From: Bacteroides ovatus
Lineage (GTDB): Bacteria > Bacteroidota > Bacteroidia > Bacteroidales > Bacteroidaceae
DNA length: 64,000 nt
Reading direction: 5' to 3'
Assembly (NCBI RefSeq): GCF_001314995.1
Contig: NZ_CP012938.1
Span: forward strand, 3,844,001 to 3,908,000
How positions within the stretch are numbered: the first letter of the stretch is position 1; each line of letters begins with the position of its first letter. Below the pieces are notes generated by a model. That model did not search any database. It saw nothing but the letters and a program-made list of their open reading frames with translations, and was not told where the DNA came from. Of this stretch, positions 10,700 through 59,692 are shown in pieces. Made by a program: the position numbers and the translations under genes.

Positions 10700-10722
10700 G
10701 TGTTTTCGATTTAAAGATGCCA

Positions 10723-35102: not shown

Positions 35103-35147
35103 CAAAGTTATACGATTGGTATATAAAGAACCTTAATTACTGTACAT
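35103..35147 (-). promoter_or_regulatory. Promoter and operator of the 11-gene operon (promoter C)
   Basis: On the minus strand TGTACAG (35146-35140) is followed by 29 bases and then the perfect -7 box TAACTTTG (35110-35103). No -33 TTTG is present, as expected for an activator-dependent promoter. The start codon lies about 90 bases downstream. The same arrangement precedes four other promoters in the window. Confidence 0.75.
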
Positions 35148-35257
35148 TTACATGTATTCTGATTCAAAAAGTATAATCAGTGATGTACAAACCCGCTTTC
35201 CGTACTACAATACAAATTATTGGCATATAAGTACATACAGGCTTATTTTCAAGAACA

Positions 35258-35287
35258 AAAAACTACGGGAGCCTCCCCGTAGTTTTT
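35258..35287. terminator. Bidirectional intrinsic terminator after the GH2-ending operon
   Basis: AAAAACTACGGG (35258-35269) pairs with CCCGTAGTTTTT (35276-35287) around a 6-base loop. It ends the minus operon whose last stop is at 35303, and insulates it from promoter C. T-runs are present on both strands. Confidence 0.88.
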
Positions 35288-35302
35288 ATTTATACAATTA
35301 AC

Positions 35303-37363
35303 TTATTTAATGCAATACCATTCACAGGTATCCGAAAGAAGTCCTTTCCCATTTTTCCCTTCCACACAAATGATATTACGTCCATCATTTAATCGGATAT
35401 CTTTCCAGATAACACGATTCATTTCATCCGGTTTCATCGTTCCTATTTTCCGGTTGTTGATATAAAGAGTAGCCTCCTTTAGATTTGTAAAGACTTTAAT
35501 ATCCGTCTTCGGATTATCTCTTTTAGTAAAACGGCGGCTTGTAATATAAATCATAGGTTCCGGATTCCAGTTAGCCTTATAAAAGTAAAAAGCATCTTTC
35601 TTCGTTTTTCTATCATGTGTCACCAAACCCTTATCATTATATCCATCCTTCTCTCCTTCCTGACGCATATAAGAAGGAAAATCGGCAAATACCCAGATGA
35701 ATTTTGCCCATAGATAAGGACGTTTTGCAAATGATTCCCAGTTACCTTCGTGGCAGAATGTCTGGGCTTCTTCCGGATGAAAATGACTATCGGAACGGTC
35801 TTCCATAGCAAGCGGCCATTGATGGTGATTGATACTTGCCCCACCACCATATTCAGAAACACCGACCGGTATTCCTTTTGAGCTATCCCTACAATCATCA
35901 AAAAACTTGGATGCCGAAGGGGCGGCATCTTTGTACCAACCGAAATATTTATTCCAGGCAATCAAGTCCGAGCACCCCAGATAGTAAGACTGGTCTACAC
36001 AAGTAGCCAATGCTGTAAGCCGGGAAGAATCAATTGATTTATAAATTCCGTTGAGTTCTTTAATAAAAGGAATAGGATTATCATACTCCACAAATCTTTT
36101 CCCATCACTTACCAGTATCTCATTACATATACCCCAAAAACAGATAGAAGGATGATTAAACTTCTGATAAACCAACTCTTTCACTGCCAACCGTGCATTA
36201 TCCTTATATCCTTCGGTATCAACAAATCCGGTAAATGCCTGTCCACCAGGACCGCACATCGGTATCTCCGTCCAAAGAATAATCCCATTCTCATCCGACA
36301 AATCATACATTGGTTCTGCGTGAGGATAATGAGCAAGACGCATCGCTGTTGCTCCGGACTCTTTTATAAGTTCCATATCCATCCGGTAATCTTCCGGAAG
36401 CAAGGCACTGGCTCTACCTACTGCATCCTCATGACGGCAGAAGCCATAAAGGTTCAGATATTCACCATTCAGGAAGAAACCCTTTTCATGATCCACAGAG
36501 AAATAGCGGAATCCTGTACGCTGCACCATCCTGTCTTTCAATAGATTGCCATCATACAACTCGACAGTCACAGTATATAAATAAGGATTCTTCTTCCCGT
36601 CCCAAAGAATAGGACGATGAATCTTCATCGGCTGTTTTACAATCACATCAGAGACTTCCACCTCATTACTAGCTACGGTTTTATTATCCGCATCCGCCAC
36701 AGTTGTTTTAAGCCTTAGCCCCTGTTTCTTGTTTTTTAATGAAAGATGTGTCTCCACATTCACATCAGCAACCGTTTTCGAGATATTTTCCTGATGGATA
36801 AATACTCCCGGAGAAGCATAAAATAAAGGAGAAATACAATCCTGTCCGGTTACAATCAAATGGCATGGACGATGAATACCTCCATTCACATTAAAATCAC
36901 CGCTAACAGGCAAAATATCTGTACGATATGCATTGCTAGCCCAAACTTCCAGCAAGTTCTCTCCTTCTTTCACCTCGTCTGTAATTTCAATACAAAAAGC
37001 GGTATATCCACCCAAATGCTCACCAACCGTGCGACGATTCATAAACACCTGTGCAGCCGAATTCACTCCTTCAAAATACAGGAAAAGGCGTTTATTTTTC
37101 ATTGCCTTCGTCACTACCAACGGACGCTGATATACCATCATTTTACGCTCATATAATGTAGTCCCTTCAATATAACTCGTATTCCAAGTATGAGGTATAG
37201 TCACTGGAGTGAATGGAGCTTTTCGGTTTACTGTTGTGATAGGCCTACACTCCCAACCCTCATTCAGCGAGAAGATGGTGCGGGGAGAAGTTTCCTGTGC
37301 AAATAGTCCAATATTAACCAGGCACAGACATACCAAGCATAAAATTATAATTCTGTTCTTCAT
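35303..37363 (-). CDS. GH2 family glycoside hydrolase (686 aa), secreted
   Basis: A signal peptide (LVNIGLFAQ) leads to three GH2 domains: the sugar-binding fold with VTIPHTWNTSYIEGTTLYER, the Ig-like domain, and the barrel from GFCRHEDAVGRAS. The acid/base is in WGICNEI (about E415) and the nucleophile in GVSEYGGGA (about E504). A short C-terminal Ig-like domain (TDIKVFTNLKEATLYINNRK) ends it. It is smaller than the two other GH2 enzymes here and likely to have a different bond preference, such as beta-galactosidase or beta-glucuronidase; the sequence does not settle this. It is the last gene of a four-gene operon, 7 bases after GH88. Confidence 0.88.
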   Translation of the reverse strand: MKNRIIILCLVCLCLVNIGLFAQETSPRTIFSLNEGWECRPITTVNRKAPFTPVTIPHTWNTSYIEGTTLYERKMMVYQRPLVVTKAMKNKRLFLYFEGVNSAAQVFMNRRTVGEHLGGYTAFCIEITDEVKEGENLLEVWASNAYRTDILPVSGDFNVNGGIHRPCHLIVTGQDCISPLFYASPGVFIHQENISKTVADVNVETHLSLKNKKQGLRLKTTVADADNKTVASNEVEVSDVIVKQPMKIHRPILWDGKKNPYLYTVTVELYDGNLLKDRMVQRTGFRYFSVDHEKGFFLNGEYLNLYGFCRHEDAVGRASALLPEDYRMDMELIKESGATAMRLAHYPHAEPMYDLSDENGIILWTEIPMCGPGGQAFTGFVDTEGYKDNARLAVKELVYQKFNHPSICFWGICNEILVSDGKRFVEYDNPIPFIKELNGIYKSIDSSRLTALATCVDQSYYLGCSDLIAWNKYFGWYKDAAPSASKFFDDCRDSSKGIPVGVSEYGGGASINHHQWPLAMEDRSDSHFHPEEAQTFCHEGNWESFAKRPYLWAKFIWVFADFPSYMRQEGEKDGYNDKGLVTHDRKTKKDAFYFYKANWNPEPMIYITSRRFTKRDNPKTDIKVFTNLKEATLYINNRKIGTMKPDEMNRVIWKDIRLNDGRNIICVEGKNGKGLLSDTCEWYCIK

Positions 37364-37370
37364 GTGATTC

Positions 37371-38597
37371 TTATTTCTTTATTTCAATACCAATTTTATC
37401 TTTTAAAATATCTTTTTTATAACGAAGCAAAGCTTCCACATAATAGTAATCAGCGTAAGTCAACGGTACATCCACTTCTTTCTTTTTGGGCTTGTTACCT
37501 ACAGAGTGTTTTAATATAAAATCACAGTTTGTCCCCGGTTCTGCCAAATACTTAGAAGACGACAAATTTCTTAGCTGTGTCTCCGCTACGGATAAACATT
37601 CCTTAGAAAAGCGTCCTTTAGTATATTGGCTCAACTCAATCAAAGCGGATGCAATCACCGCTCCGGCAGAAGCATCACGCGGTGTGTCAGGAATATCAGG
37701 ATCATCAAAATCCCAATAAGGAATCTTATCCTCCGGCAATTGCGGATGATTTATGATAAATTTAGCTACTTGTATGGCATGTTCCAAATATTTCTTCTCT
37801 TTTGTTTCACGATACATCATTACATAACCATACAGTGCCCAACCTTGCCCGCGAGACCAGTCCGAATCATCGGCATATCCTTGATAAGTACCTTTGTGAT
37901 CCGGCTTCCCAGTTATTGTATCATAAGATACGACATGATAACAACTATAATCCGGACGGAAATGATTCTTCATTGTAATATCCGCATGAGAACGTGCTAT
38001 GGAAGCAAAATCCGAATGTTCCGAATTTTTAGATGCCCATAATAATAATTCCAGATTCATCATATTATCAATGATAACCGGATACTGCCAAGTTTTTCTA
38101 TTCCAGGATTTAATACAACCAGTTACCGGATTAAAACGTGTACTTAACGACTGCGCCCCTTGTAACATTACCTGCTTATATTCTTCATTACCGGTCAAAC
38201 GCCATCCATTACCATAACTGCAATAAAGAATAAAACCTACATCATGATTACTGGTAGTAAATTGTTGTTTTTCCAGCCGCCTGGTATAATCTTCAGCATA
38301 CATCTTTAATGAGACATCACCATTCGCTTCATACAAATACCATAATACTCCAGGGAAAAAGCCACTTGTCCATGCCCCTGCATTCGATGTTATAAACGCT
38401 CCCCTTTTACCTATGGTACGAGGAAGTTCATCTTTCTGCCCTAGTAATTTCTCCGCCATCTGTTTAGACTGCACAATAGCCGTATTCAATCCTTTATCTA
38501 TAATAGTACGCATTTCTTTTCTATTATCCTTACCCGAAACAGAGCTACACAAAGAAAAGAAAATAGCAAAAGTAACAATCAAAAATCTTATTCTCAT
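37371..38597 (-). CDS. GH88 unsaturated uronyl hydrolase
   Basis: The 408-residue product has a signal peptide and the (alpha/alpha)6 barrel of GH88. The two catalytic Asp motifs are visible: SNHDVGFILYCSYGNGWRLT (about residue 118) and VIIDNMMNLELLLWAS (about 175). DDSDWSRGQGWALYGY is the conserved active-site stretch shared with GH105. These enzymes hydrolyse the unsaturated uronic acid left by a lyase. GH88 members usually favour unsaturated glucuronic acid, while GH105 (also in this locus) takes unsaturated galacturonic acid. A GlcA-decorated side chain, arabinogalactan-like, is the suggested target; that is inference. It is the third gene of the four-gene operon. Confidence 0.87.
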   Translation of the reverse strand: MRIRFLIVTFAIFFSLCSSVSGKDNRKEMRTIIDKGLNTAIVQSKQMAEKLLGQKDELPRTIGKRGAFITSNAGAWTSGFFPGVLWYLYEANGDVSLKMYAEDYTRRLEKQQFTTSNHDVGFILYCSYGNGWRLTGNEEYKQVMLQGAQSLSTRFNPVTGCIKSWNRKTWQYPVIIDNMMNLELLLWASKNSEHSDFASIARSHADITMKNHFRPDYSCYHVVSYDTITGKPDHKGTYQGYADDSDWSRGQGWALYGYVMMYRETKEKKYLEHAIQVAKFIINHPQLPEDKIPYWDFDDPDIPDTPRDASAGAVIASALIELSQYTKGRFSKECLSVAETQLRNLSSSKYLAEPGTNCDFILKHSVGNKPKKKEVDVPLTYADYYYVEALLRYKKDILKDKIGIEIKK

Positions 38598-38632
38598 AGT
38601 TCAATTTATTATTTTTATAGTTTACATAAGAG

Positions 38633-39850
38633 TTAATCTCTCAATGCATGGTCAATAGGAACTTCTGCATCACTACCCCATATTTTTAACGAAGTCCATT
38701 CTTCCGGCCCACTACTCCAGAATTCATCCATAGCATCAAGCCCTAAAGGCAAAAAAACTAAAGTGCACATATACAAACTTCCTGTAGAAACATACTTCTC
38801 CGCCAAACGAGGCTGATGACCACAAAACCCCAATGTAAGCCATCCGTCTTTATCATACGTTCCTTTCACGAGTTGTCGTTTCATTGCTTTTGTCAAAGCA
38901 CAACGCACCTGTGCCGGTTTAATTTCCTTCGGCAATTTCTTCATCAATGAGACTTGTGCCAATGCATGAAATGCCCCTAAACGATAAGCGATAGAACGTC
39001 CGACAGGTGGATAAGTCCCGTCCGGGCCGATCATTCTTTCCTGTTGTTCAGCAAAACGCACAAAACGCCTCAACTGTGTATCATAAAAATCGGCACCTTC
39101 TGCTCCACGACGTTTCAATACATCCAATATATCCATCATCATCGGTTGAATGACAAAACTATTATAATAGTCCATATGCAAACGATGTCCATCACCATAC
39201 CACCCATCACCTTTATACCACTCTTTATGTTTTTGTAAAGCATAGGTAACAGGTTTCATATTACATTCTCCTGTGAACTCTAATAAAGCAACCTCAATCA
39301 TAGCCGAAAACATTAACCAATTCTTGTCCGGTGCCTTAAAATGCCGGGATGCCTTCAGTTCCTTTATCAACCGCTGCTTGGTGATAGTATCCAAGCGAGT
39401 CCAAACCTGATCTTTTGAACGAAGCAATCCTTCCGCTACGTATGCAGCATCAACTAACTTCTGACTGTAAGGTCTATCAAAAGGCATATAATCAGGAGAT
39501 TCCGGATCAACAGCATTAGCCAAAGACTTAACTACCAAATCAATATATTTAAAACGCAACTTTCCCTCTTCCGTTTTATCAACCGGAAGATTAAGCCATG
39601 GTGCAATTCCAGCAAATGAACGTCCTAATGCTTCCAAATGAGTCACATCTTTTCTATCATTACCAGTATTCAACCCGTCACGCGTCTCTACTGGCATATT
39701 CTTTCTTAATGTATTCCGGCTCAGATTCGTATAAATGGGATCCACCATTTTAATCATTGTTTTCACCCAATATTCACGTTCTCCCCCCGGCTTAGAGAAG
39801 ACCAAAAGCGGAAATAACAATAAACACAAAAGAAAAATTCTCCTATTCAT
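38633..39850 (-). CDS. DUF2264 family protein (GH154-type, putative uronic acid hydrolase)
   Basis: The 405-residue product has a signal peptide (LLVFSKPGG) and matches the DUF2264 pattern: REYWVKTMIKMVDPIYTNLS, LEALGRSFAGIAPWL, DKNWLMFSAMIEVALL, WYKGDGWYGDGHRLHMDYYNSFVI and GPDGTYPPVGRSIAYRLGAF. It is an alpha-barrel. From memory, DUF2264 proteins were later placed in CAZy family GH154 with beta-glucuronidase activity; I cannot check this here. Together with GH88 next door it points to glucuronic acid on the target glycan. It lies 47 bases after the double esterase gene and 35 before GH88. Confidence 0.8.
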   Translation of the reverse strand: MNRRIFLLCLLLFPLLVFSKPGGEREYWVKTMIKMVDPIYTNLSRNTLRKNMPVETRDGLNTGNDRKDVTHLEALGRSFAGIAPWLNLPVDKTEEGKLRFKYIDLVVKSLANAVDPESPDYMPFDRPYSQKLVDAAYVAEGLLRSKDQVWTRLDTITKQRLIKELKASRHFKAPDKNWLMFSAMIEVALLEFTGECNMKPVTYALQKHKEWYKGDGWYGDGHRLHMDYYNSFVIQPMMMDILDVLKRRGAEGADFYDTQLRRFVRFAEQQERMIGPDGTYPPVGRSIAYRLGAFHALAQVSLMKKLPKEIKPAQVRCALTKAMKRQLVKGTYDKDGWLTLGFCGHQPRLAEKYVSTGSLYMCTLVFLPLGLDAMDEFWSSGPEEWTSLKIWGSDAEVPIDHALRD

Positions 39851-39897
39851 AGTATAATAATATTTGGGATTACAGTTTCTTTTCTGACTTTCGACAC

Positions 39898-41538
39898 CTA
39901 TCTCTTACTCAAAATATGAGAAAGTATTTTTGACGCCACAATCTCCTGCCCGGGCTCTGCCATGTGTACACCATCTTTAGCATAATAATCAAGTACTCCC
40001 AACAGCGGCTGATGGATATTAACGACATCAAAGCCCTGCTTTAAGGCCATAGTCTCAAGTTCCGGAACCAAACGTGCCAATCTCTTACCTGAATCCTGAT
40101 ATTTGGGACTAACATTTTCATCCCTCAAAGGTGGTGGAGTCACATAAATAAATTTGGTCTTGCCACTCCTACACAACTTATGCTTCTTAATTTTAGCCAA
40201 AAGAACCTTTAGATTTTCTGAAACTTCTCTTTGCCTTGAATCAAACATTTTTTTAGAATCATTTGTACCCAAGCATACGATAATATAATCATAACGTTTC
40301 TTCTCAACCTGTGCCTTATCCAAATATGCATCTATATTTTTGAGTGCATTAAGACGTTCTCTTCCATTATTATCAAACCCAATAGTCCTACCACTCTCAG
40401 AGAGATTAACAATATTTGATTCAGGCATCATCTTTTTCAACTGATCGACCCATCCACCTTTATTTTGACCATTCGAGTCTCCAATAGCCAATATATTACA
40501 TTTCAAATCCGTCACAGTATGATTATAAGGCAGCAAACTTAAAGCTTGAGAAATCTGCTCATGCCTTCCTTCAAAAACCGTCAATTGTATATTTTCATAT
40601 TTACGAAGTAAATGAACTTTACGATCATATAACATCTGATTCTTCTCATATTCAGGATTCATGCGCTTTCCTAAAAGTCCAAGCATTTCTTCAGGGGATA
40701 TCAGATCGGAGTCCGACAAAGATTTCTCCATAATTTCTTTCATATCCGAACTCCCATATTTCAACTCTCCAACCAGTCTATTATACATATTTAAAGAATG
40801 AGTGATGGGAACAGAACCTTTATAACCGTCATGGATACCTGTGTATATATACAATCTCGAATTCTTCCGCTTCTCTATCGGGAAATCTTGTCTCAAAGGC
40901 GAACGAAGAATAGCGGTTTCTTTATTAAAGGTCTTTTTATCAAGAGATACAACACTTAGAATATCTTCCGCATATCTTGATCCTCTTCCTACACATTCCC
41001 AATACCAGGCTTCAATATCTGAAATTGGAACCCATGCAGAGAATGATTTCACAGGGTATTCTATATTCATGAAAGCGGCTAACGTAGCAAAGCCACCTCC
41101 TGATACCCCTATTATATGTACCTCCTCTGGATTAGCATTAGTATGCTTCAATGCATACTGAATGGCATCTTCAATATCCCCCAAAGCCAACGGACTCCCC
41201 ATTGACGAAGGTGTCCTGTTAGCTCCCCTGAAATCAGGATGAATATAATTCCAGTCACGCGCCAATATCTCTTTAGCTAAAGGATCAGTCTGATTGTAAT
41301 AACCGCTCCAGGTATGCAGACTTACGATCAAAGGCTGTGATACCTTGCTAGTCGACTTGTACATAAATGCCTTCTGAACTTCTCCATCTTTAGTGGAAGG
41401 AATCTCTACCTTCTGAAATGCCGGATCCCATTTTCTTTTTGAGGTATTGTCCCAAGCCGGTTCTTTCTGCGCAAAGAGCAGAACAAAGCAACTGGCACAA
41501 AAGAACAATGTAATTGCAATCTTTTTCATGGTTATCAT
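39898..41538 (-). CDS. Two-domain esterase: alpha/beta hydrolase fused to SGNH hydrolase
   Basis: After a signal peptide (to FAQ, about residue 24) the N-terminal part (25-335) is an alpha/beta hydrolase of the prolyl-oligopeptidase-like esterase type: nucleophile GVSGGG (S146), Asp in GIHDGYKGS (D237) and His in FEGRHEQI (H326). The C-terminal part (about 345-546) is an SGNH hydrolase: IGDSNGQNKGGW (S355), LGTNDSKK (N426) and the DGVH motif (D522, H525). All expected catalytic residues appear intact in both. Such a protein could remove two kinds of ester, for example acetyl and feruloyl or methyl, from pectin. The substrates are not readable from sequence. It is the first gene of a four-gene operon behind promoter D. 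An alternative start is the ATG three codons in. Confidence 0.85.
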   Translation of the reverse strand: MITMKKIAITLFFCASCFVLLFAQKEPAWDNTSKRKWDPAFQKVEIPSTKDGEVQKAFMYKSTSKVSQPLIVSLHTWSGYYNQTDPLAKEILARDWNYIHPDFRGANRTPSSMGSPLALGDIEDAIQYALKHTNANPEEVHIIGVSGGGFATLAAFMNIEYPVKSFSAWVPISDIEAWYWECVGRGSRYAEDILSVVSLDKKTFNKETAILRSPLRQDFPIEKRKNSRLYIYTGIHDGYKGSVPITHSLNMYNRLVGELKYGSSDMKEIMEKSLSDSDLISPEEMLGLLGKRMNPEYEKNQMLYDRKVHLLRKYENIQLTVFEGRHEQISQALSLLPYNHTVTDLKCNILAIGDSNGQNKGGWVDQLKKMMPESNIVNLSESGRTIGFDNNGRERLNALKNIDAYLDKAQVEKKRYDYIIVCLGTNDSKKMFDSRQREVSENLKVLLAKIKKHKLCRSGKTKFIYVTPPPLRDENVSPKYQDSGKRLARLVPELETMALKQGFDVVNIHQPLLGVLDYYAKDGVHMAEPGQEIVASKILSHILSKR

Positions 41539-41589
41539 ATCTTTGAGATATTTTTATTTGGTCTATTATCGAATCAATATTCTACATGG

Positions 41590-41634
41590 CAAAAGTAGAG
41601 CTATTGAAGAATCCAAGTATGTAATCCAGTACAA
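41590..41634 (-). promoter_or_regulatory. Promoter and operator of the four-gene esterase-GH2 operon (promoter D)
   Basis: On the minus strand TGTACTG (41633-41627) is followed by 29 bases and the perfect -7 box TACTTTTG (41597-41590). It is divergent from promoter A, whose upstream element begins 36 bases away. Confidence 0.75.
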
Positions 41635-41668
41635 ATAAATAGAATTAAATCCTATCAAGAGCAAAAGC

Positions 41669-41731
41669 GTACAAGAAAATATGTTTTTGTACAGAGCTAC
41701 AAATTTGAATCTATATAAACCTCTTTCTTTG
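41669..41731 (+). promoter_or_regulatory. Promoter and operator of the GH28 gene (promoter A)
   Basis: GTACAA (41669-41674) and TGTACAG (41688-41694) put two GTAC cores 20 bases apart, a spacing expected for a two-site AraC-type target. The -7 box TTTCTTTG (41724-41731) follows after 29 bases. The whole stretch reappears before the GH95 gene. Confidence 0.75.
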
Positions 41732-41763
41732 CAACCAGAAATATTTTTAATTTTAATATCATG
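41669..41763 (+). repeat. Promoter-leader repeat, copy 1 (matches 43550-43644)
   Basis: From the GTACAA element through the -7 box and leader to the ATG, this stretch aligns with the one before GH95 with about four-fifths identity and two single-base gaps. The coding sequences that follow are unrelated (GH28 and GH95), so a promoter was duplicated without its gene. Confidence 0.75.
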
Positions 41764-43395
41764 AGAATTTCGTATAAACCGTATTTACTTCCTACTCTGA
41801 TATTCAGCTTTATGCTTCTATCTTGCCAATCAAATGCAGGATTAGAAACTATTATCACAGTTGAACAAGTCGGAGCAGCAGCCACACCGGACAAAATCGT
41901 ACCTATTGAAGGAGCACCTTTTGAGATTCCACAACTGAAAAGACCCGTTTTCCCGGACTTTACTATTAACATAGAAGAGAAAGGGGCAAAAACAAACATT
42001 CCTATCACTTCTATTGTAAATCAAACAATTGAAGAAATTTCCCAAAAAGGTGGCGGAACCGTTATCATACCTAAAGGAAAATGGAAATCCGGACGCATCG
42101 TTCTAAAAAGTAATGTCAACCTGCACCTCGCAGAAGGTTCTGAAATCGAATTTCCGGGGAATGCAGAAGATTATCTGCCTGCCGTGTTCACCCGTCATGA
42201 AGGAATCGAGATCATGGGCTCCGGTTCATTCATCTATGCCAACGGTGAGGATAATATAGCCATTACAGGAAAAGGAGTTATTTACGGCCCTTCACTGGAT
42301 GCCGAAATCAGACAGCGCCCTAATGGTAATACGGTAGTAGAAAAAGATATTCTGAATAATGCTCCGGTAGAAAAAAGAGTATTCGATGGTATGGACGGAA
42401 GAGGCTTCTATAAGCCTAAAACGATATCTCCGATTAACTGCACCAATGTTTTGATTGAAGGAATTACGATGGAACGCAGTACTTTCTGGAATGTTTGTCC
42501 GATTTATTGTGAAAATGTAATTATACGGGGAATTACCGTAAATTCAATAGGAATCCCCAGTGGTGACGGCATAGACATCGAATCCTGCAAGAATGTTCTT
42601 ATAGAGTATTGCACGCTGAATTGCGGAGACGATTGCTTCACTTTGAAAGCAGGGCGGGCAGAGGATGGATTACGGGTTGGGAAGCCTACAGAAAACGTTG
42701 TAATCCGTTACTCCCTGGCTCAACAAGGGCATGGCGGAGTTACTTGCGGAAGCGAGACAGCCGGTGGTGTTAAGAATGTATATGTCCACGATTGTGTCTT
42801 TGACGGCACTCAAATCGGTATACGCTTTAAAACACGCCGTAACCGTGCAGGTGGAGTTAATGATGCTTTATACGAGAAAATCCGCATGATTAATGTAGGA
42901 GAAGCCTTTAAATGGGATTTACTGGGCAGCAAACGTTATGTAGGGGAACTCGCCGAACGCTATCCGCCAAGAGCTGTCAATAAGCTGACTCCGACTATCA
43001 AAGATATTCATATCAAGAATTTCATTGTAGAATCAGCCGAGAAAATTCTAAGTGTAAACGGGATTCCTGAAATTCCATGCAGTAATGTATTAATAGAAAA
43101 CGGCAAGATTATCAGCAAAAAACTAATTGGCGCTTTAAACGATGTAGACGGATTCACTTTCAGAAATCTGGATATTTACGCAGAAGATAATAAAATCAAT
43201 ATATTGGACGGCCGGAATATTTTATTCGATGACGTAACCTTTGCTGTTCCACACGGGGAAATACTCACAAACATCAAAGGAGACAAATCTCAGAATATTT
43301 TTATTCAAAACGGAGAATCCCGGACAGAGTGTTCTATGGAGAAACCGATTAAAGTGGAAAAACTTAGCCAAGCTCTGCCAAAATCCAGGAAATAG
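41761..43395 (+). CDS. GH28 polygalacturonase-type hydrolase, lipoprotein
   Basis: The start MRISYKPYLLPTLIFSFMLL leads to a lipobox (MLLSC). The rest is a right-handed beta-helix with all GH28 motifs: GDGIDIESC (D269, D272), the catalytic GDDCF (D290, D291), QGHGG and IRFKTRR. The starting DxGAxxxxxxxxT pattern is present as EKGAKTNIPITSIVNQ. GH28 enzymes remove galacturonic acid by inversion, either from homogalacturonan or from the non-reducing end of RG-I fragments. In an RG-I locus the exo-acting role, after GH106 removes rhamnose, is the likelier. It is transcribed alone and ends at a good terminator. Confidence 0.92.
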   Translation: MRISYKPYLLPTLIFSFMLLSCQSNAGLETIITVEQVGAAATPDKIVPIEGAPFEIPQLKRPVFPDFTINIEEKGAKTNIPITSIVNQTIEEISQKGGGTVIIPKGKWKSGRIVLKSNVNLHLAEGSEIEFPGNAEDYLPAVFTRHEGIEIMGSGSFIYANGEDNIAITGKGVIYGPSLDAEIRQRPNGNTVVEKDILNNAPVEKRVFDGMDGRGFYKPKTISPINCTNVLIEGITMERSTFWNVCPIYCENVIIRGITVNSIGIPSGDGIDIESCKNVLIEYCTLNCGDDCFTLKAGRAEDGLRVGKPTENVVIRYSLAQQGHGGVTCGSETAGGVKNVYVHDCVFDGTQIGIRFKTRRNRAGGVNDALYEKIRMINVGEAFKWDLLGSKRYVGELAERYPPRAVNKLTPTIKDIHIKNFIVESAEKILSVNGIPEIPCSNVLIENGKIISKKLIGALNDVDGFTFRNLDIYAEDNKINILDGRNILFDDVTFAVPHGEILTNIKGDKSQNIFIQNGESRTECSMEKPIKVEKLSQALPKSRK

Positions 43396-43445
43396 ATTCA
43401 ATAGGTATTAATAATACAAAGGTTTTTGATTAGTTAGTTAAAAAA

Positions 43446-43485
43446 GGCTGTCTCAACAATGCAGAAAAAAATGAGACAGCCTTTT
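43446..43485 (+). terminator. Intrinsic terminator of the GH28 gene
   Basis: GGCTGTCTCA (43446-43455) pairs with TGAGACAGCC (43472-43481), followed by TTTT. It lies 51 bases after the GH28 stop and separates it from the GH95 promoter. Confidence 0.85.
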
Positions 43486-43549
43486 CTATTATGAGCTTAT
43501 TCAAATTTTGCTCGATTTGAATCCTAAATAATATAAAAGAATAAATAAT

Positions 43550-43613
43550 GTACAAGAAGATATATTTCTGTACTGAACTACATAATTAAATCTATATAAA
43601 ACCACTTTCTTTG
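43550..43613 (+). promoter_or_regulatory. Promoter and operator of the GH95 gene (promoter B)
   Basis: GTACAA (43550-43555) and TGTACTG (43569-43575) have GTAC cores 20 bases apart, as in promoter A. The -7 box TTTCTTTG (43606-43613) follows after 30 bases, one more than in the other promoters. Confidence 0.72.
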
Positions 43614-43644
43614 TAACTGGAAATGTTTTAATTCAAATACCATG
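43550..43644 (+). repeat. Promoter-leader repeat, copy 2 (matches 41669-41763)
   Basis: This is the second copy of the promoter and leader described for GH28. The ATG at 43642 falls at the same place as the GH28 ATG, which decides the start chosen for GH95 over the in-frame ATG at 43669. Confidence 0.75.
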
Positions 43645-46029
43645 AAAATAATCATTATAAAAAACATTATGAAATACCATTTCAGCACCCTGCTATTTTT
43701 ACTCTTTACTTTCAGTATATCGGCACAACAGAAAGTTCCAGCAAATAACATTATTCCTATGGATCATAGTGTAAGGCCACAAGAGAAACTCACACTATGG
43801 TATGACCAGCCATCAGACAACTGGATGGATCTTTCACTTCCTATCGGTAACGGGCAACTGGGAGCTATGATCTTCGGTGGCATCGGATGCGACGAAATAC
43901 AGTTTAATGAAAAAACCGTATGGACCGGACGTCCTAACGGCATTGAGAAAAAAGCCAACTACGGTGAATATCGTAACTTCGGCAACCTCTACATCAGCCA
44001 TCGCGGAATTAAAACAGATACAAAGATCACCGACTACCGTCGCTGGCTGGATATACGTAATGCTGTAGCCGGTATGACTTACTCTATTGACGGAGTCCGA
44101 TATGACCGCGAATACATAGCTTCATCTCCCGACGGAATGATTGCTGTGATGCTACGTGCTTCGGGAAAGGAGAAAATCAATGTAGATCTGCTACTGAAAG
44201 ATGGCAATACCGATTACAACGGAACAGCATCGGGCACAAAAATCGACAAAGGAAACATGACTTTTAAAGGTAAACTAACCTATCTTTCCTATTATTGCCG
44301 GGTAGCAGTCACTCCATACGGCAAGAAAGCCAAAGTGAGTATCAATGATTCGGCACTTACCATAACCAAAGCCGACTCCCTGCTCGTTTTGTTGTCAGGT
44401 GGTACTAACTACAGTACTGAAACTGCCAACTATCGCACCAATGAATCAGTACTCCATCAACGCATTGACGACATCATAAACAAAGCCTTAGCCAAAAACT
44501 ATACCACACTGAAAACACGTCAGCAGAAAAGCCACCGTATGCTTTTCGACCGCTGCCAGTTGTCTATCACACCCGACGACTGTAACACCAAACCGACACC
44601 GCAGCTTGTAGCTGACTATAATAAGACAGATTCATCGTATCTGGATAACCACTTCCTCGAAGAGCTCTATTTCAATTATGGTCGTTACCTGCTTATAAGT
44701 TGCGCCCAAGGCATAGCTTTACCTAGCAATTTACAAGGCATATGGAACTATAGCAACAGCGCTGTATGGCACTGCGACATACATGCTAATATCAATGTAC
44801 AGATGAACTACTGGCCCGCAGAAGTCACCAATCTCAGTGAACTGCACAACAATTTGCTCGACTATATCTATAACGAAGCCCTCATACATACACAATGGCG
44901 CGACAATGTAAATACCGTATTACGTTCAGCTAACAAAAATGAGAATCAGAAGCCGGGTGGATTCTTCTGTTCCACGGCTAACAACATTTTTGGTGGCGGC
45001 ACAGAATGGAAGTTACAGGAATATGCTGTAGTCAACGCCTGGTACTGCCTGCACTTCTACGAGCACTGGCTCTATACGGGGGATAAGACATTCCTTCGTG
45101 AAAAAGCATTACCCGTAATGCTTAGTGCTGTAGAGTTCTGGAAGAACCGTCTTATACGTGATGAAAACGACGGCAAATGGATTTGTCCGCGAGAATTCAG
45201 TCCGGAACAAGGGCCGACGGGCAAGGTGACAGCCCATGCACAACAATTGGTAAAGTCCCTCTTTAGTAACACCTTGAAAGCTTGCAAAGCTTTGGACAAA
45301 GACTGTCCGCTGAGAGCAGAAGAGTTAGAAGTCATCAATGACTATCACAACAATATCGATGACGGCCTTTATACGGAAATCGTCAACAAAGCAGATGGTG
45401 AGTTGTTACTGAAAGAGTGGAAATATGCCGGTCAGGATTCTATCGGCAGTCTGACCCATCGACATGTATCGCACCTCTTTGCCCTCTATCCTTTAAATGA
45501 GATAGATAAGACGAGCAATGACAGTATTTATCAAGCCGCATTACGTTCACTGAAATGGCGCGGTCCGCAAGCTACCGGATGGGCTATCAGCTGGAAAATG
45601 AACTTATGGGCACGTGCACAAGATGGTGGCTATGCTCGCAGACTACTAAAAAGTGCCTTGCACCATAGTACCCATTACCAAATGAAAGCTTCAACAAGTA
45701 GTCCGGGCGGGATATATAACAACTTATTTGACGCCCATCCGCCATTTCAAATAGATGGTAACTTTGGTACTACGGCAGGTATTGCCGAAATGCTCATGCA
45801 AAGCCATGCCGGCTACATACATCTACTCCCCGCATTACCACCCGACTGGACAAAAGGTAGTGTAAAAGGACTGAAAGCACGCGGTGGTTATGAAATCTCA
45901 ATAGACTGGAAAGACGGCAAAGTCACTCATACTACCATAAAGTCTCCAAAAGACGATGAAGTCGACATCCTGATAAACGGACAGCTTCATCACTTAGTTT
46001 TAAAAGCCGGAATTACCACCCAACTCTGA
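43642..46029 (+). CDS. GH95 family enzyme (alpha-L-fucosidase or alpha-L-galactosidase)
   Basis: The 795-residue product has a signal peptide and the GH95 layout: N-terminal beta-sandwich ([29 protein letters not shown]), a linker, then an (alpha/alpha)6 barrel with [27 protein letters not shown] and the acidic stretch [14 protein letters not shown], and the end block [22 protein letters not shown]95 enzymes invert and release L-fucose or L-galactose from glycans such as xyloglucan or pectin side chains. The residue pattern does not let me choose. The short upstream ATG is preferred because the leader aligns with that of GH28. It is monocistronic, with a hairpin 66 bases after the stop. Confidence 0.9.
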
Positions 46030-46094
46030 TAGTTTTTGTCAAAGCATATATTTATCTTTTATAAAAGAGCCAAGAAAGTATCTAGTAATGAAAC

Positions 46095-46130
46095 GCCCTC
46101 TAAAAGTTTATAATCTAACTTTTAGAGGGC
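46095..46130. terminator. Shared hairpin between the convergent GH95 and GH2 genes
   Basis: GCCCTCTAAAAGT (46095-46107) pairs perfectly with ACTTTTAGAGGGC (46118-46130), a 13-bp stem. The T-tract is weak on both sides (ACATTCTTTT on plus), but the position between two convergent stops supports a terminator. Confidence 0.7.
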
Positions 46131-46190
46131 ACATTCTTTTCTCTATCAAATGGATATAAGTAATAAACGATTCTTATCACTAACTCTAAA

Positions 46191-49166
46191 TTAGCGATTT
46201 ATAGTTTCCAAGAACCCAACTTCAACAATTCTCAATTCATTATTCGTTTTTTCTCCATTTTTCGCTCTAAGCAAATCCAAATCACCTGCACTAGGTTCAA
46301 CGACTTCCACAATCTGTTTAAAAGCATCTGCCTCTTTAGCCGCTCCTTTCAATCTAATAGTGATTTTATCACTTCTCACAGGCTTAACCGACAGATGAAT
46401 ATACCCCAGACTTTGTTCCGTATCACCGCTCCAAATCAATTCGTCATCCGCAAAAACTTCTAATGGGTAAGAACGCTTTCTCCATCCGGTTAGTTTAATA
46501 CATATGTCGTCAATCTCCGCTTTCCGTTCCAACCGATACGTAATCCATGCCGTATTTAATCTACCGTCATTTTTCCATTCACTTAACTCATTACCGTCAA
46601 AGCTATTAACAGCCTCTTCACTGTTAACTCCCGCAAAGGCAGACTTAACTCTCACATCTACTTTTGAATTTTTATAAGAAGGAGTCAATGGCGTCTCACC
46701 GCGATCAAACCGACTGGCAAGCTTTTCACTAGGAAAAAATTTGCTTAATCCATTTTCCACTTTTACAGGAATAGAGGTAAGAGACACTTCATCTGAAACT
46801 AATCCGGATGCTTCTGCCTTTATTGTAATCTTTCCCGCCTTGCCTGTTGAACGAACCAATACTCTTGTAATACCACATTCCACAGGTAGCGCTTTTGCCA
46901 AAACATAATTGTCAGCAGCTTGTGCTATTCCACCTCTCCATTCTGCCGGACCTTGTAAATCGAAACTGATCTTATTATTGGCAAGCGGACAACGGTTTCC
47001 ATTGCTATCGACAACTTCTACCTGTATCATTGCCAAATCGGCTCCATCGGCAAATAATCCCTCAGGACCATGTATTAAGGTTAATTTCAGTCTTTCAGGT
47101 TCTCCCACTGTCTTTATGGAATAACGACTTAGTTCCTTACCGAATTCATTATAGCTCACCGCTTCAATCGTACCTTCCTCCCATTGTACCTTCTCAAAGG
47201 TGAACAAGAAACGATAATCTTGTTTACCGAAACCTTTTGATTTACCATTTACAAACAATTCTACCTTATCTCCCGTAGAAACGACATAAACAGGCTTTAC
47301 TACATCAGGGGAATAGTTCCAATGTCCCATAATATAGGTATGTTCCTTCTCAATATCAACCCATCCATCCCACATTACTTTATGGGCAAAAAAGCCATCC
47401 TTAGGTATTCTCAAAGGATCAACCACTCCGCTCCGACGATAATTTTCTTCTCCACGCCGATGGGTTTGAGTATCAGAAAAGATAATTTTTGCCCCACCGG
47501 AACTTACTCTTCTCCCTGTTCCCGGACGTTCCCGCCAGTAATCATACCATCTACGAACCAGTTCTACGGCAAACATATCTTGATTATGATTATATATACT
47601 TGCATCCTGTCCCCTGTACAAAGGTCCGGCCCCTTCTTTATGAAAAGGATAACTATATTCATCCCAATATTTACGTAAGCCTTCATCTCTGCAATATTCT
47701 GTGGCAAACATCGGATGATGTTCACTCTTATTGATATAAAGCATTTCTCCTCCCCACTCGGCTTCACGAATATCCAACATTTCACGAGACCCCATTGCTC
47801 TGCCACCATAAGGGTCATATTTGTCACGAATAGCGATCATTTCAAGCATATGCTCCTTACTGATAGATTCGTTGCCGGATTCATAGAACAAAATACTCGG
47901 ATTATTTCTAAAATAGATAATAGCATCGCGCATCAATTCCAGACGCTGCCCCCACCAACGCCCTACCGCATCCTTTTCTGCATCCCCAGCGGGCATCACT
48001 TGAATCACTCCAACCCTGTCGCAAGACTCTACATCCTGTTTCCACGGCGTCACATGCATCCATCTGAAGAAGTTTGCATTATGATCAAGTAGCAAACCAT
48101 TAGAAAAATCACTCATCCAAGGTGGTACCGATAATCCTACACCCGGCCATTCATTACTTGTACGTTGGGCATATCCTTTCATTTGCAGTACACGGTCATT
48201 CAACCATACTTTTCCTTCCCCGAAACGTGTTTTTCTGAAGCCCGTTTTGGTCACAACTTCGTCAATAACTTTATTGTCTACTATCAATCTGGTTTTTACA
48301 TTATAGAGATAACCATATCCCCAACTCCAAAAATGAAGATTATCTAATTTTTGAGAAGCTTTTACTATTGCCGTTGTTTTAGGATTTACTATCATCGGTT
48401 CACCTCTGAAAGTGCTCACCAGTTTATCATCATAATCGTATACACTGACTTCATAATTCACACTAAGAGGAGCATCATATTCATTACGTATCTCTGATTC
48501 TGCATTTATAATAGCCTCACGGCTCTTGGTACGTATGTCAGTTGCATAGATATAGACTCCAGTGGTCTGCAAGTTGCTATATAAAGGTAAAGTTTGATAT
48601 AACTTGTCTGTAATATGCAACCATACATTTTTAGGTATACCTCCATAATTAACATTGAAGTTTTTATCATTCCACTGATACCTGCTTCCTGTTGCTCTCT
48701 CTTTATAGTTCCAGTCATTGTCAGTCCGTACGGCAATCACGTTTTCACCACCAAAATTCAAATAGGATGTTAAGTCGAAACCTACCGCCATCACCCCATT
48801 CTCATGCAGTCCGATATGATTACCATTCACATAAAAGTCAGCTCCCTGACGCACTCCTTCAAACTCAATAAACACTTTTTTCCCTTTTGCTGTCTTAGGC
48901 AATTTAAAGTGTTTACGATACCAAGATATGGTATCAGTCATGTTTTCAATGCCGACTTTAAAAGCCTCATCTTCATTAAAAGCATGTGGCAACGTTACCT
49001 TTTTCCAATCTTTATCAGAAAAGGAGTTCTTTTCCGCTCCTTGAATATCCCCTACATGTAATAACCATTGGGAGTTAAAATTATATTTCTCCCTGTTATT
49101 CGCCCCTAATGCAGCGGGAACCAATAAAAGGAACAATAACCATTTCATTACTTTTTGTTTTTCCAT
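46191..49166 (-). CDS. GH2 family glycoside hydrolase with C-terminal binding domains (991 aa)
   Basis: A signal peptide (LLLVPAALGAN) precedes the GH2 sugar-binding fold (KVTLPHAFNEDEAFKVG), Ig-like domain and barrel. Acid/base lies in YESGNESI (about E433) and nucleophile in FATEYCRD (about E490). The usual RGxxRHxxHP is replaced by KGYAQRTSNEWPGVG, placing it in a distinct GH2 subgroup. After the barrel come a DUF4982-like Ig domain (VELFVNGKSKGFGKQ) and a bacterial Ig-like domain (about 690-800). A discoidin-like region (VNSFDGNELSEWKNDGRLNT, about 855-960) ends it. A beta-galactosidase or related activity on RG-I side chains is likely. It lies 30 bases after GH105 in the same operon. Confidence 0.87.
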   Translation of the reverse strand: MEKQKVMKWLLFLLLVPAALGANNREKYNFNSQWLLHVGDIQGAEKNSFSDKDWKKVTLPHAFNEDEAFKVGIENMTDTISWYRKHFKLPKTAKGKKVFIEFEGVRQGADFYVNGNHIGLHENGVMAVGFDLTSYLNFGGENVIAVRTDNDWNYKERATGSRYQWNDKNFNVNYGGIPKNVWLHITDKLYQTLPLYSNLQTTGVYIYATDIRTKSREAIINAESEIRNEYDAPLSVNYEVSVYDYDDKLVSTFRGEPMIVNPKTTAIVKASQKLDNLHFWSWGYGYLYNVKTRLIVDNKVIDEVVTKTGFRKTRFGEGKVWLNDRVLQMKGYAQRTSNEWPGVGLSVPPWMSDFSNGLLLDHNANFFRWMHVTPWKQDVESCDRVGVIQVMPAGDAEKDAVGRWWGQRLELMRDAIIYFRNNPSILFYESGNESISKEHMLEMIAIRDKYDPYGGRAMGSREMLDIREAEWGGEMLYINKSEHHPMFATEYCRDEGLRKYWDEYSYPFHKEGAGPLYRGQDASIYNHNQDMFAVELVRRWYDYWRERPGTGRRVSSGGAKIIFSDTQTHRRGEENYRRSGVVDPLRIPKDGFFAHKVMWDGWVDIEKEHTYIMGHWNYSPDVVKPVYVVSTGDKVELFVNGKSKGFGKQDYRFLFTFEKVQWEEGTIEAVSYNEFGKELSRYSIKTVGEPERLKLTLIHGPEGLFADGADLAMIQVEVVDSNGNRCPLANNKISFDLQGPAEWRGGIAQAADNYVLAKALPVECGITRVLVRSTGKAGKITIKAEASGLVSDEVSLTSIPVKVENGLSKFFPSEKLASRFDRGETPLTPSYKNSKVDVRVKSAFAGVNSEEAVNSFDGNELSEWKNDGRLNTAWITYRLERKAEIDDICIKLTGWRKRSYPLEVFADDELIWSGDTEQSLGYIHLSVKPVRSDKITIRLKGAAKEADAFKQIVEVVEPSAGDLDLLRAKNGEKTNNELRIVEVGFLETINR

Positions 49167-49196
49167 GTTATTAAAAACTTAAATGATAACTGACAA

Positions 49197-50321
49197 TTAA
49201 TCTAACTTATACACTTCAGTACCCGCCAACAAAAAGCACCCTACCCCATAATCTTCAAAATCGGGCACGCTCTTATAAGTCACAGGCTGACTGTCTTTAG
49301 GTTCCTTGCCGCTTCCCTGCACATATCCCAAAAAGCCATCGGGATGTATGCACTCTTTGACAATCGCATTCCAAGCTTTGAGGACCACAGGCAAATATTC
49401 CTGTTTATTCAAAATGCCGTTCCGTATTCCCCACGCCATACCATATATAAACAAGGAAGTTCCCGAAGTCTCTTTTCCACCATAGTTGGACTCATCATGC
49501 AAGCTCACATTCCAGAAACCATCTTCACGCTGACAAGCTTTTAAAGCTTTGCTCATTGCCAGAAAATCAGTTAAATAATTCTGCCGATGAGATTCATCAG
49601 CAGGAATCTCATTCAATACCCTTGTCAGGGCGGCATAGACCCATCCGTTTCCTCTGCTCCAAAAGCAATTCTTTCCATTGGGTTCTTTATACGGGGGAAC
49701 AAAATTAGCATCTCTCCACCATAATCCCTCTTTCTGATTAAATAAACCATTACCACCGATATTATTCCGCGAACAGGAATACATCTGCCACATCTTATCA
49801 TAATATTTCTGTTCACCGGTCAGTTTCCCCAATTGTGCAAAAATAGGCATTCCCATCTGAATGGCATCGATCCAAGTCCAGTCATTCACTTGCGGAGTAT
49901 TGACTAACATGTCCATCGCTGCCTTTATATTTTTTATTTTCGCAGGATCGGGAGAAATCTTGTATAATTCGATATATGCCTGTCCGCAACAATGGTCATC
50001 CGCATTACGGGTGATATTACCGCCACGCATTCCCCATTTATGGAAATCGGCCCAGTCATAAGCATAATCATAATAATCCGAACGGGGATAAATAGTATGC
50101 AGAGCCATCAAACCCTCATAATAGACACCGCGTGTCCATATATTGCTGGGCCTGAATTTACTGACATAACTGGGACGGGTATAATCCGCATACTTCTTCA
50201 TGAAATAATCATTTACCTTGATAATGGTTTTCAATGTCTCTTTCCGGTCGGGAAGAGATTGGGCCGGAAGTGAACTCCATCCGGACAAAAGTAACAAAAC
50301 AACCAGTATTTGTTTTCTCAT
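49197..50321 (-). CDS. GH105 unsaturated rhamnogalacturonyl hydrolase
   Basis: The start at 50321 gives MRKQILVVLLLLSGWSSLPAQ, a signal peptide. The frame is open to 50363, but that would overlap the -7 box at 50361. The 374-residue (alpha/alpha)6 barrel has GH105 motifs RNADDHCCGQAYIELY, TWIDAIQMGMPIFAQLG (catalytic Asp), FWSRGNGWVYAALTRVL and DGFWNVSLHDESNYGGKETSGTS with its Gly-rich end. GH105 removes the unsaturated galacturonic acid that PL11 leaves at the non-reducing end of RG-I oligosaccharides. This makes it the direct partner of the two lyases. It is followed 30 bases on by a GH2 gene. Confidence 0.92.
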   Translation of the reverse strand: MRKQILVVLLLLSGWSSLPAQSLPDRKETLKTIIKVNDYFMKKYADYTRPSYVSKFRPSNIWTRGVYYEGLMALHTIYPRSDYYDYAYDWADFHKWGMRGGNITRNADDHCCGQAYIELYKISPDPAKIKNIKAAMDMLVNTPQVNDWTWIDAIQMGMPIFAQLGKLTGEQKYYDKMWQMYSCSRNNIGGNGLFNQKEGLWWRDANFVPPYKEPNGKNCFWSRGNGWVYAALTRVLNEIPADESHRQNYLTDFLAMSKALKACQREDGFWNVSLHDESNYGGKETSGTSLFIYGMAWGIRNGILNKQEYLPVVLKAWNAIVKECIHPDGFLGYVQGSGKEPKDSQPVTYKSVPDFEDYGVGCFLLAGTEVYKLD

Positions 50322-50360
50322 GGATATAAGTTTAATTATTGATAAATTTATTCTTTGATA

Positions 50361-50405
50361 CAAAAGTAGGGGTAAGCTTCCATGTCTAAATAGAGAGCAG
50401 TACTA
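50361..50405 (-). promoter_or_regulatory. Promoter and operator of the GH105-GH2 operon (promoter F)
   Basis: On the minus strand AGTACTG (50404-50398) is followed by 29 bases and the perfect -7 box TACTTTTG (50368-50361). The start codon is 40 bases downstream. Confidence 0.75.
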
Positions 50406-50445
50406 ATCCATTGACTACAATTCAAATATGCCGGAAACAATAATA

Positions 50446-50489
50446 TAGACAGCCCGGAAAGTAATATTTTCCATGTTTTTGTATATTTG
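50446..50489 (+). promoter_or_regulatory. Promoter of the plus-strand PL11 gene with a degenerate operator (promoter G)
   Basis: TATATTTG (50482-50489) is a perfect -7 box. TAGACAG (50446-50452) stands exactly where WGTACWG stands in the other promoters and matches 5 of 7 bases. This may be a weakened operator, or chance. Confidence 0.45.
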
Positions 50490-50521
50490 TCCAGTTAATG
50501 CTAATTATAAATGCCGTCCTT

Positions 50522-50550
50522 TGTATGTCCTTTTATAATCGGGACATACA
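50522..50550 (+). promoter_or_regulatory. Leader hairpin just upstream of the PL11 start
   Basis: TGTATGTCC (50522-50530) pairs perfectly with GGACATACA (50542-50550) around an 11-base AT-rich loop. It lies in the predicted untranslated leader, 21 bases before the ATG. It could be an RNA control element or a protein operator. No T-run follows, so it is not a terminator. Confidence 0.6.
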
Positions 50551-58986: not shown

Positions 58987-59036
58987 TATTACTTTTCAGG
59001 TCCTACATGAATATTAATTGAAAAAATATGATGCCA

Positions 59037-59044
59037 CAAAGATA
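59037..59044 (-). promoter_or_regulatory. -7 box of the epimerase-PAP2 operon
   Basis: TATCTTTG on the minus strand fits TAnnTTTG exactly and lies about 50 bases upstream of the epimerase start. No clear -33 element is seen. It falls inside the overlong N-terminal frame of the sigma factor gene, which argues against that longer start. Confidence 0.45.
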
Positions 59045-59068
59045 CGATAAATATAAAATAAAAGCCAT

Positions 59069-59100
59069 TTTGCTTTTCTCAATTATTATTTGTTTATTTG
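59069..59100 (+). promoter_or_regulatory. Promoter of the ECF sigma factor gene
   Basis: TTTG (59069-59072), 20 bases, then TTTATTTG (59093-59100). The -33 box and spacing are ideal and the -7 box has one mismatch. It lies inside the longest open frame and supports the GTG start at 59139. Confidence 0.6.
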
Positions 59101-59138
59101 CAACGCGATTCATTTACTATTCAACACTTTTAAAGCAC

Positions 59139-59633
59139 GTGGAAGATAAGGCCGATTTTGATTTTCTTTTTAAAGAGTACTATCCTCAACTTTATTATTA
59201 TGCATTTCACCTGATTAATAATATGGAGGCTAGCAAGGATATCGTAAGCGACGCCTTCGAATTTATTTGGGCCAATTATGCAAAAATAGATAAAGCCACG
59301 GCTAAATCTTATCTATACATTTACGTTCGCAACAAAAGCATTGACTTCCTGCGACATCAGAATATACATGAACAATATGTACAAATCTACTCCGAACTGA
59401 CCAAAAGTTATGTTGAAACGGAATATCAGGAGCAGGATGAGAGAATGATGCATATCAGTAAGGCAATGGAAAAACTGACTCCACATACCAAGCATATTTT
59501 AGAAGAATGTTATATCCAACGCAAGAAATATCAGGAAGTGGCAGAAGAGTTAAATATCAGTGTCAGTGCAGTCAGGAAGCATATTGTGAAAGCATTACAG
59601 GTGATACGTGAAGAATGTGCAAAAAAATCATAA
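59139..59633 (+). CDS. ECF sigma factor (SigW/FecI type)
   Basis: I start the gene at GTG 59139, giving 164 residues with the normal ECF beginning VEDKADFDFLFKEYYPQLYY. The open frame extends to an ATG at 59028, but its extra 37 residues are hydrophobic and unlike a sigma factor, and they would contain the -33/-7 promoter above. Region 2 runs to AYEFIWAN-like DAFEFIWANYAK, and region 4 is HTKHILEECYIQRKKYQEVAEEL-type with a helix-turn-helix (ELNISVSAVRKHIVKAL). ECF sigmas with FecR partners are switched on by an STN-bearing SusC when its glycan is bound. The FecR gene follows 59 bases downstream. Confidence 0.85.
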   Translation: MEDKADFDFLFKEYYPQLYYYAFHLINNMEASKDIVSDAFEFIWANYAKIDKATAKSYLYIYVRNKSIDFLRHQNIHEQYVQIYSELTKSYVETEYQEQDERMMHISKAMEKLTPHTKHILEECYIQRKKYQEVAEELNISVSAVRKHIVKALQVIREECAKKS

Positions 59634-59692
59634 AGCAGGTGTCTTTATTTTATGATTAAACGTAATATAAATAAGTATGATACAGTCAAACA

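Follow-up and report, generated by a model that had tools for sequence, protein, structure and literature searches.

Seven operons of a rhamnogalacturonan I (RG-I)-type locus of Bacteroides ovatus are each preceded by a 34-bp direct repeat, which lies at a nearly constant distance from the -7 box of the promoter. The locus spans about 1.6–52.5 kb of the 64,000-nucleotide stretch of DNA that was analysed (hereafter, the window; positions 3844001–3908000 of G000:C1, the single contig of 6,472,489 bases that makes up the genome). An earlier note on this DNA had proposed the heptamer WGTACWG as an operator common to five promoters. The definition obtained here is sharper: judging from the comparison of sequences, the operator is real and conserved, and it very probably belongs to the hybrid two-component system regulator (HTCS) encoded in the same locus. 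What the analysis adds is the complete operator with its location, one relocated and one additional site, and the possibility of a common regulon.

Structure and position of the operator

The following sites were found in the window, seven rather than five:

Operator A, 41669–41702, plus strand; before GH28 (41761–43395, plus); -7 box TTTCTTTG at 41724–41731
Operator B, 43550–43583, plus strand; before GH95 (43642–46029, plus); -7 box TTTCTTTG at 43606–43613, one base farther off
Operator C, 35132–35165, minus strand; before an 11-gene run (11499–35012, minus); -7 box TAACTTTG at 35103–35110
Operator D, 41619–41652, minus strand; before a GDSL-esterase (CE12 in the earlier note)/DUF2264/GH105/GH2 run (35303–41538, minus); -7 box TACTTTTG at 41590–41597
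Operator E, 50390–50423, minus strand; before GH105-GH2 (46191–50363, minus); -7 box TACTTTTG at 50361–50368
Operator F, 50461–50494, plus strand; before PL11 (50572–52500, plus); -7 box GTCCTTTG at 50516–50523
Operator G (new), 6294–6327, minus strand; before a GDSL-esterase (CE12 in the earlier note)-GH2 run (1612–6229, minus); -7 box TTCATTTG at 6265–6272

The full operator consists of two 14-bp half-sites, GNAY-N3-A-N-T-N2-A-K, in the same orientation, separated by a 6-bp spacer, which gives a period of 20 bp; the downstream half begins 39–40 bp ahead of the TTTG in the -7 box. Fourteen sites were aligned, including six from the window (A–F), seven from Bacteroides gallinarum, and one before a GH115 gene. 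With positions counted from the W of WGTACWG, the columns G-19, A-17, A-7, G+1, T+2, A+3, T+10, and A+13 were invariant in all 14, and the period of 20 bp is seen in every site as the column pairs G-19/G+1, A-17/A+3, and A-7/A+13. The TTTG of the -7 box starts at +40 in 11 sites and at +41 in three (B, one B. gallinarum site, and the GH115 site). Columns A-7, T+10, and A+13 were absent from the first model and from the patterns by which the GH115 site and two B. gallinarum sites were found.

The -7 box is taken to be centred at -7, so the downstream half covers approximately -46 to -33, the usual location of a -33 box. The observation of the earlier note that a good -33 box is missing agrees with the absence of a TTTG 25–31 bp before the -7 TTTG in all five of its sites. 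The same count was zero among 13 sites, versus 23 of 200 background promoters and 21 of 155 promoters near HTCS genes, numbers too few for a conclusion.

The five heptamers reported earlier (at 41688 and 43569 on the plus strand and at 35146, 41633, and 50404 on the minus strand) were confirmed with their gaps of 29 or 30 bp, as were the fixed spacing (counted from the W, TTTG starts at +41 in B and at +40 in the four others) and the second GTAC that A and B carry 20 bp farther upstream; G[AG]AT occupies the corresponding place in sites C, D, and E. Thus, WGTACWG is a genuine shared element, yet it is one part of a larger direct repeat and not the whole operator. Alone, it occurs 33 times on both strands of the window, with 26 occurrences inside open reading frames (ORFs); the seven others are the five sites, site B re-read on the opposite strand, and a match at 61726–61732. 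The genome-wide search for GTACWG-N28-31-TAnnTTTG (6.47 Mb), of the kind suggested in the earlier note, returned 13 matches, barely above chance (seven for the reversed control), and only three of them, C, D, and E, were in the locus; A and B were missed because their boxes read TTTCTTTG. These counts rule out WGTACWG as the whole operator. Inclusion of the upstream half made the pattern far more selective. All four genome matches to GNAY-N15-WGTAC-N35-TTTG are promoters, namely A, C, D, and E (two matches in the reversed control); with N36, eight matches were obtained, including B and the GH115 site (control, four); and a pattern with GTAY and a T..YTTTG box gave five matches, four of them in the locus, and none in the control. 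Since such two-half patterns were built from the sites themselves, the information lies in the scarcity of other matches.

Scanning of the window with a 13-site matrix gave scores of 32.0–43.5 for A–F, which are among the training sites of the full model, and 24.5 for G (6308, minus strand), which is outside the training set. Operator G is located 79 bp before the esterase gene starting at 6229 (minus strand); its half-sites begin GTAT and GAAC, and seven of the eight invariant columns are kept, T+2 being replaced by A. The earlier statement that CE12 and the adjoining GH2 lack the element is therefore correct for WGTACWG and incorrect for the full operator, a variant of which is present there. 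None of the eight best full-model matches in the window lies before the HTCS gene.

Operator F was placed by alignment with the PL11 promoter of B. gallinarum. Its downstream half carries GTAT rather than GTAC (TGTATAT at 50480), and in a leave-one-out scan with the full model it scored 18.3; for comparison, the sole match of at least 14 outside the second RG-I locus and the GH115 promoter in 1.6 Mb of the same genome scored 14.5. The weak PL11 site that the earlier note had put at 50446 was misplaced: it has no G at +1 or -19 and was ruled out, although its box TATATTTG is closer to the consensus than the box GTCCTTTG of the site at 50480.

Conservation in Bacteroides gallinarum

The orthologous stretch of B. 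gallinarum (40 kb, G018:C24) contains a GH28 with 74% identity and an HTCS 69% identical to that of the window. It was scanned blind with a matrix derived from A–E only (the first, smaller model). The seven best matches were seven gene-proximal promoters, all located 76–215 bp upstream of an ORF on the same strand:

5057, GH2
4993, GH28
2005, GH105
1928, PL11
7427, operon with fimbrillin-like genes
11099, next large ORF
33858, second GH106

The scores of these sites were 19.5–24.5, versus 18.7 or less in 400 kb of the B. ovatus genome; with the full motif they were 28.1–36.9, whereas no score above 26.4 occurred in 1.6 Mb of that genome, a sample with the second RG-I locus in it. In the reverse test, in which the window was scanned with the B. 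gallinarum sites only, A–E ranked first. All five anchors compared between the window and B. gallinarum are in register, among them operator A and its orthologue. In five promoter pairs (C being paired with the site at 11099), identity was 130/185 (70%) for the operator, 54/95 (57%) for the spacer, and 32/40 (80%) for the -7 box, versus 183/300 and 137/230 (61% and 60%) for the flanks, so the contrast is modest.

A pattern search in 26 genomes yielded 12 matches in B. gallinarum, six of them within its 32-kb locus (reversed control, three), and 80 matches in the 25 other genomes (control, 67). Separately, a short-repeat array with TGTACTG-rich units was observed in B. gallinarum (L108, G018:C24) at approximately 38290–38650 of the contig.

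More distant loci

A search for HTCS orthologues across the family (399 genomes) revealed none closer than 41% beyond those already known. Their identities to the window HTCS are 60% in G122, 57% in G113, 55% in G053, 54% in G098, 46% in a second G122 locus, and 45% in G044. In these six loci the first matrix gave 14 matches of at least 12.5, six of them in intergenic DNA upstream of an ORF on the same strand and eight within ORFs. Both A-7 and A+13, columns outside the first matrix, are present in all six intergenic matches and in one of the eight in-ORF matches. No intergenic match was obtained with this matrix in the G053, G044, and second G122 loci. With the full matrix and a threshold of 12, the G098 locus has a match of 47.5 before a GH28 relative and one of 20.7 at 42878 (minus strand), the G122 locus has matches of 30.4, 24.6, 20.6, and 16.6, and the G113 locus of 16.7 and 16.1. 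The operator is thus conserved at seven promoters in B. gallinarum, partially in G122, G113, and G098, and weakly or not at all in G053, the second G122 locus, and G044.

A strong operator-like repeat was also noted inside an ORF of the second G122 locus (L120, contig position 10509, plus strand); it scores 24.1 without the -7 box, which is poor.

Of 33 GH28-anchored loci elsewhere, 31 remain besides those of B. gallinarum (L044) and B. oleiciplenus (L051). They contain scattered first-model matches of up to 19.5, with reversed controls reaching 18.5, and tell little; no full-length HTCS relative was found within the stretches of these 31 loci that were examined.

Related sites elsewhere in the genome

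The full model was applied to 80 stretches of 20 kb (1.6 Mb) of the B. ovatus genome, which included 38 of the 39 other listed HTCS genes. Seven matches of at least 14 were obtained with the 13-site matrix: five in a second RG-I locus, one before the GH115 gene, and one elsewhere (the 14.5 mentioned above). The six best matches outside the window accordingly belong to the second RG-I locus and the GH115 promoter; three sites of that locus and the GH115 site score 25.5–29.6.

The second RG-I locus (5720001–5840000; 5.72–5.84 Mb) is rich in PL11, GH105, GH28, and SusC/D relatives. Its three HTCSs share 38–41% identity with that of the window, more than any other HTCS of the genome, and its five intergenic operator-like sites, scoring 15.4–27.7, are located 69–239 bp before same-strand genes. 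The window HTCS, in the earlier note the only obvious activator, is not the only possible binder. The GH115 gene (3974048–3976423, minus strand) lies outside the window; its operator-like site scores 29.6 and resembles those of the second RG-I locus in the GAACGAA half and the +41 spacing. In the B. gallinarum locus, a gene between GH106 and the HTCS encodes a protein with 66% identity to the GH115 product. A regulon shared by the window locus, the second RG-I locus, and GH115 is possible.

The locus and its regulator

The enzymes of the locus include GH106, PL11-type lyases, GH28, GH95, GH88/105-type enzymes, GH2, and GDSL esterases (CE12 in the earlier note), and its other proteins include two SusC-like proteins, one SusD, and fasciclin and fimbrillin-like proteins; the position of a second SusD is taken by a protein without a Pfam match. 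The 11-gene run behind operator C encodes fasciclin-like, SusC/SusD, PL11, fimbrillin-like, and GH106 proteins. In the ORF list, the GH105 gene at 49197–50363 (minus strand) starts with a TTG inside its own -7 box TACTTTTG; the in-frame ATG at 50321 is likely the start instead of this TTG at 50363. Just past the locus, at 59028–60859 (plus strand), there is a pair of genes for an extracytoplasmic function (ECF) sigma factor and a FecR-type anti-sigma factor.

One HTCS is encoded in the locus:

6398–10723, minus strand; HTCS, 1441 aa, with a Reg_prop/Y_Y_Y sensor, HisKA, HATPase, a receiver, and an AraC-type DNA-binding domain

All of these domains, characteristic of the HTCS family, are present in one chain. 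Comparison with solved structures and NCBIfam provided no specific name for this protein. At 1252 it carries SHIP, a form of the S/CHIP motif, which has been tied to inhibited, phosphorylation-dependent DNA binding (PMC11253607), and on this motif the protein is assigned to the inhibited class.

Which regulator reads the sites

The HTCS of the locus is the best candidate for the protein binding the operator, and it is likely, on the combined sequence evidence, that the element is its operator and serves to activate the operons of the RG-I-type locus. The earlier proposal that the element is the binding site of this HTCS, spaced for contact with RNA polymerase, is thus partly supported, only a part of the operator having been seen at that time. 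The indirect support is good, because the element recurs at the locus promoters of a species with a 69% identical HTCS, has a geometry as published for HTCS operators (PMC3878776), and is rare in other sequences of the same genome.

The following mechanism could be proposed. An RG-I oligosaccharide would activate the HTCS sensor, and phosphorylation of the receiver would free the AraC-type domain. Two such domains would then occupy the same face of the DNA next to each other, the two helix-turn-helices of each contacting GNAY and A-K, about one turn apart. The downstream domain, at the location of the -33 box, would recruit RNA polymerase as a class II-type activator. A close variant of the operator is probably recognised by the three paralogues in the second RG-I locus, which makes some cross-talk with the locus HTCS likely.

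Several observations weigh against this interpretation. Sequence does not distinguish the window HTCS from its three paralogues as the binder. Four of the seven -7 boxes (A, B, F, and G) match the TAnnTTTG consensus poorly; with the first model, operator F scored only 10.3 in the leave-one-out scan; and in the reverse test A–E scored 14.4–26.4 against a background maximum of 23.2, while F was missed. The full-model scan of the genome covered about a quarter of it, and positions with an operator part below 3 were skipped. The first model gave 11 matches of at least 16 in 800 kb of the genome, and the best of them (21.8), although located in the second RG-I locus, fails the full motif. Conservation fades fast: the full matrix gives one weak match (14.4) in the G053 locus, one (20.2, inside an ORF) in the second G122 locus, and none of at least 12 in the G044 locus, and the HTCSs of these loci are nonetheless 45–55% identical to that of the window. 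The GTAC core, which the earlier note expected to be kept in orthologous promoters, is found with the strict pattern at six sites in B. gallinarum and at none in the HTCS loci of G122, G113, G053, G098, and G044. Finally, in-ORF matches to the first model in the orthologue loci reach 21.3 in G113, 17.1 in G098, 18.4 in the second G122 locus, and 19.1 in G044; these matches of 17–21 were taken as chance.

Alternatively, the main reader of the sites could be one HTCS, or several, out of the three in the second RG-I locus, or all four regulators could share the sites. These paralogues are the nearest relatives of the window HTCS in the genome, their locus contains four intergenic sites of 17.2–27.7 and one of 15.4 under the same model, and the GH115 site has the half-site and spacing of that locus. 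However, the B. gallinarum sites are located in a locus with a 69% identical orthologue of the window HTCS, and A–F score 32–43.5 versus 15.4–27.7 in the second locus, although A–F trained the model. This explanation is considered unlikely.

The involvement of another regulator or of a general promoter element, for which the ECF sigma/FecR pair present in the window (59028–60859) is the candidate, is very improbable: the element is a direct repeat with a 20-bp period before an ordinary -7 box rather than a -35/-10 pair, an architecture that does not fit the ECF pair and led to its rejection, and it is rare in the 1.6 Mb holding 38 of the 39 other HTCS genes. It is hardly credible that the sites resemble each other by chance or that a single promoter was recently duplicated within the locus. 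Although WGTACWG alone is common and A and B are similar by eye over approximately 70 bp and may be duplicates, sites C, D, E, F, and G have by eye little in common outside the -7 box and the columns of the operator, and the blind cross-species test in B. gallinarum speaks against both explanations, which were rejected.

Relation to known HTCS operators

The earlier note regarded HTCS operators as little known, which understates the prior knowledge. Ravcheev et al. (2013; PMC3878776) predicted 16 of them as same-orientation repeats with a mean period of 21 bp upstream of locus operons, and 20 of the 36 B. thetaiotaomicron HTCSs were left without a predicted operator after that work. The putative window operator agrees with this class in being a direct repeat with a period of about two helix turns (20 bp, compared to the mean of 21). 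The operons that it precedes encode SusC/SusD and enzymes, and their locus has an HTCS of the AraC type. The closest geometry is that of HTCS_Rgu-2 (BT4178/BT4182, AraC-type HTCSs of the B. thetaiotaomicron RG-I locus BT4145-83), with 14-bp sites and a 6-bp spacer; HTCS_Rgu-1 has 12 + 9 bp and HTCS_Man 16 + 5 bp (PMC3878776). The 14 + 6 direct repeat before RG-I operons is common to HTCS_Rgu-2 and the window, the comparison being one of geometry and not of letters. However, the window HTCS is probably another HTCS, given its 39–41% identity to its own-genome paralogues; we assume, without proof, that the paralogues from the second RG-I locus are the counterparts of BT4178/BT4182 and likelier orthologues of them than the window HTCS is. 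Also, the main-text passages of PMC3878776 that deal with promoters and distances make no mention of a fixed distance to the -7 box. No paper was recognised as stating such a distance for HTCSs, few subscription papers being covered. Novelty is limited, since direct-repeat HTCS operators and the 14 + 6 RG-I geometry have already been described (PMC3878776).

Binding of HTCSs to promoters or DNA of their own loci is known for other regulators and sites: receiver-DNA-binding fragments of BT4124 and BT4663 shift the bt4114 and bt4662 promoters in gels (PMC11253607), and BT0366 binds DNA of its locus according to chromatin immunoprecipitation sequencing (PMC3404733). Growth of B. ovatus on RG-I has been described (PMC3243724), and PMC12125979 deals with another regulator.

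The position of the operator could also be compared with that seen in other activators. In class II activation by AraC-family proteins, the operator lies directly against the upstream promoter element or takes its place. The operator position in the window is similar, while the promoter is of the Bacteroides -7/-33 type and the polymerase contact is putative.

Repeats near other HTCS genes and implications

Self-similarity upstream of the -7 box was analysed independently of any motif in 131 TAnnTTTG promoters near other HTCS genes (34 stretches, the second RG-I locus excluded) and 200 background promoters, for 20 periods; an earlier form of the test used all 155 HTCS-near promoters. The self-similarity at a period of 21 bp was reached by none of 5000 permutations, and the lowest p values for the other 19 periods were 0.015 (17 and 19) and 0.026 (28). 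The period-21 excess amounted to 0.40–0.56 matches per 8-mer at -30 to -46 and was nil at -18 to -26. It was nearly as large (0.35–0.50) at -62 to -78, which weighs against a tight position. The signal supports the presence, in promoters near HTCS genes, of repeats ahead of the -7 box and does not prove one fixed position for them. The excess at -62 to -78 from the TTTG could mean that certain operators comprise three or more half-sites.

One could tentatively hypothesise, with less than even confidence, that HTCS promoters share one spatial grammar, a direct repeat with a period of 20–21 bp and the downstream half in the place of the -33 box, and that operators are interchangeable between the RG-I HTCSs of a genome, so that the two RG-I loci and the distant GH115 gene would form a single regulon.

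Among the regulators of glycan use in gut Bacteroides, HTCSs form a major class. A complete operator fixed in position, together with its predicted target operons, perhaps including GH115, provides a template with which operators of further HTCSs can be sought. If the hypothesis of one grammar, with the downstream half replacing the -33 box, were true, HTCS regulons would become readable from sequence without a known motif.

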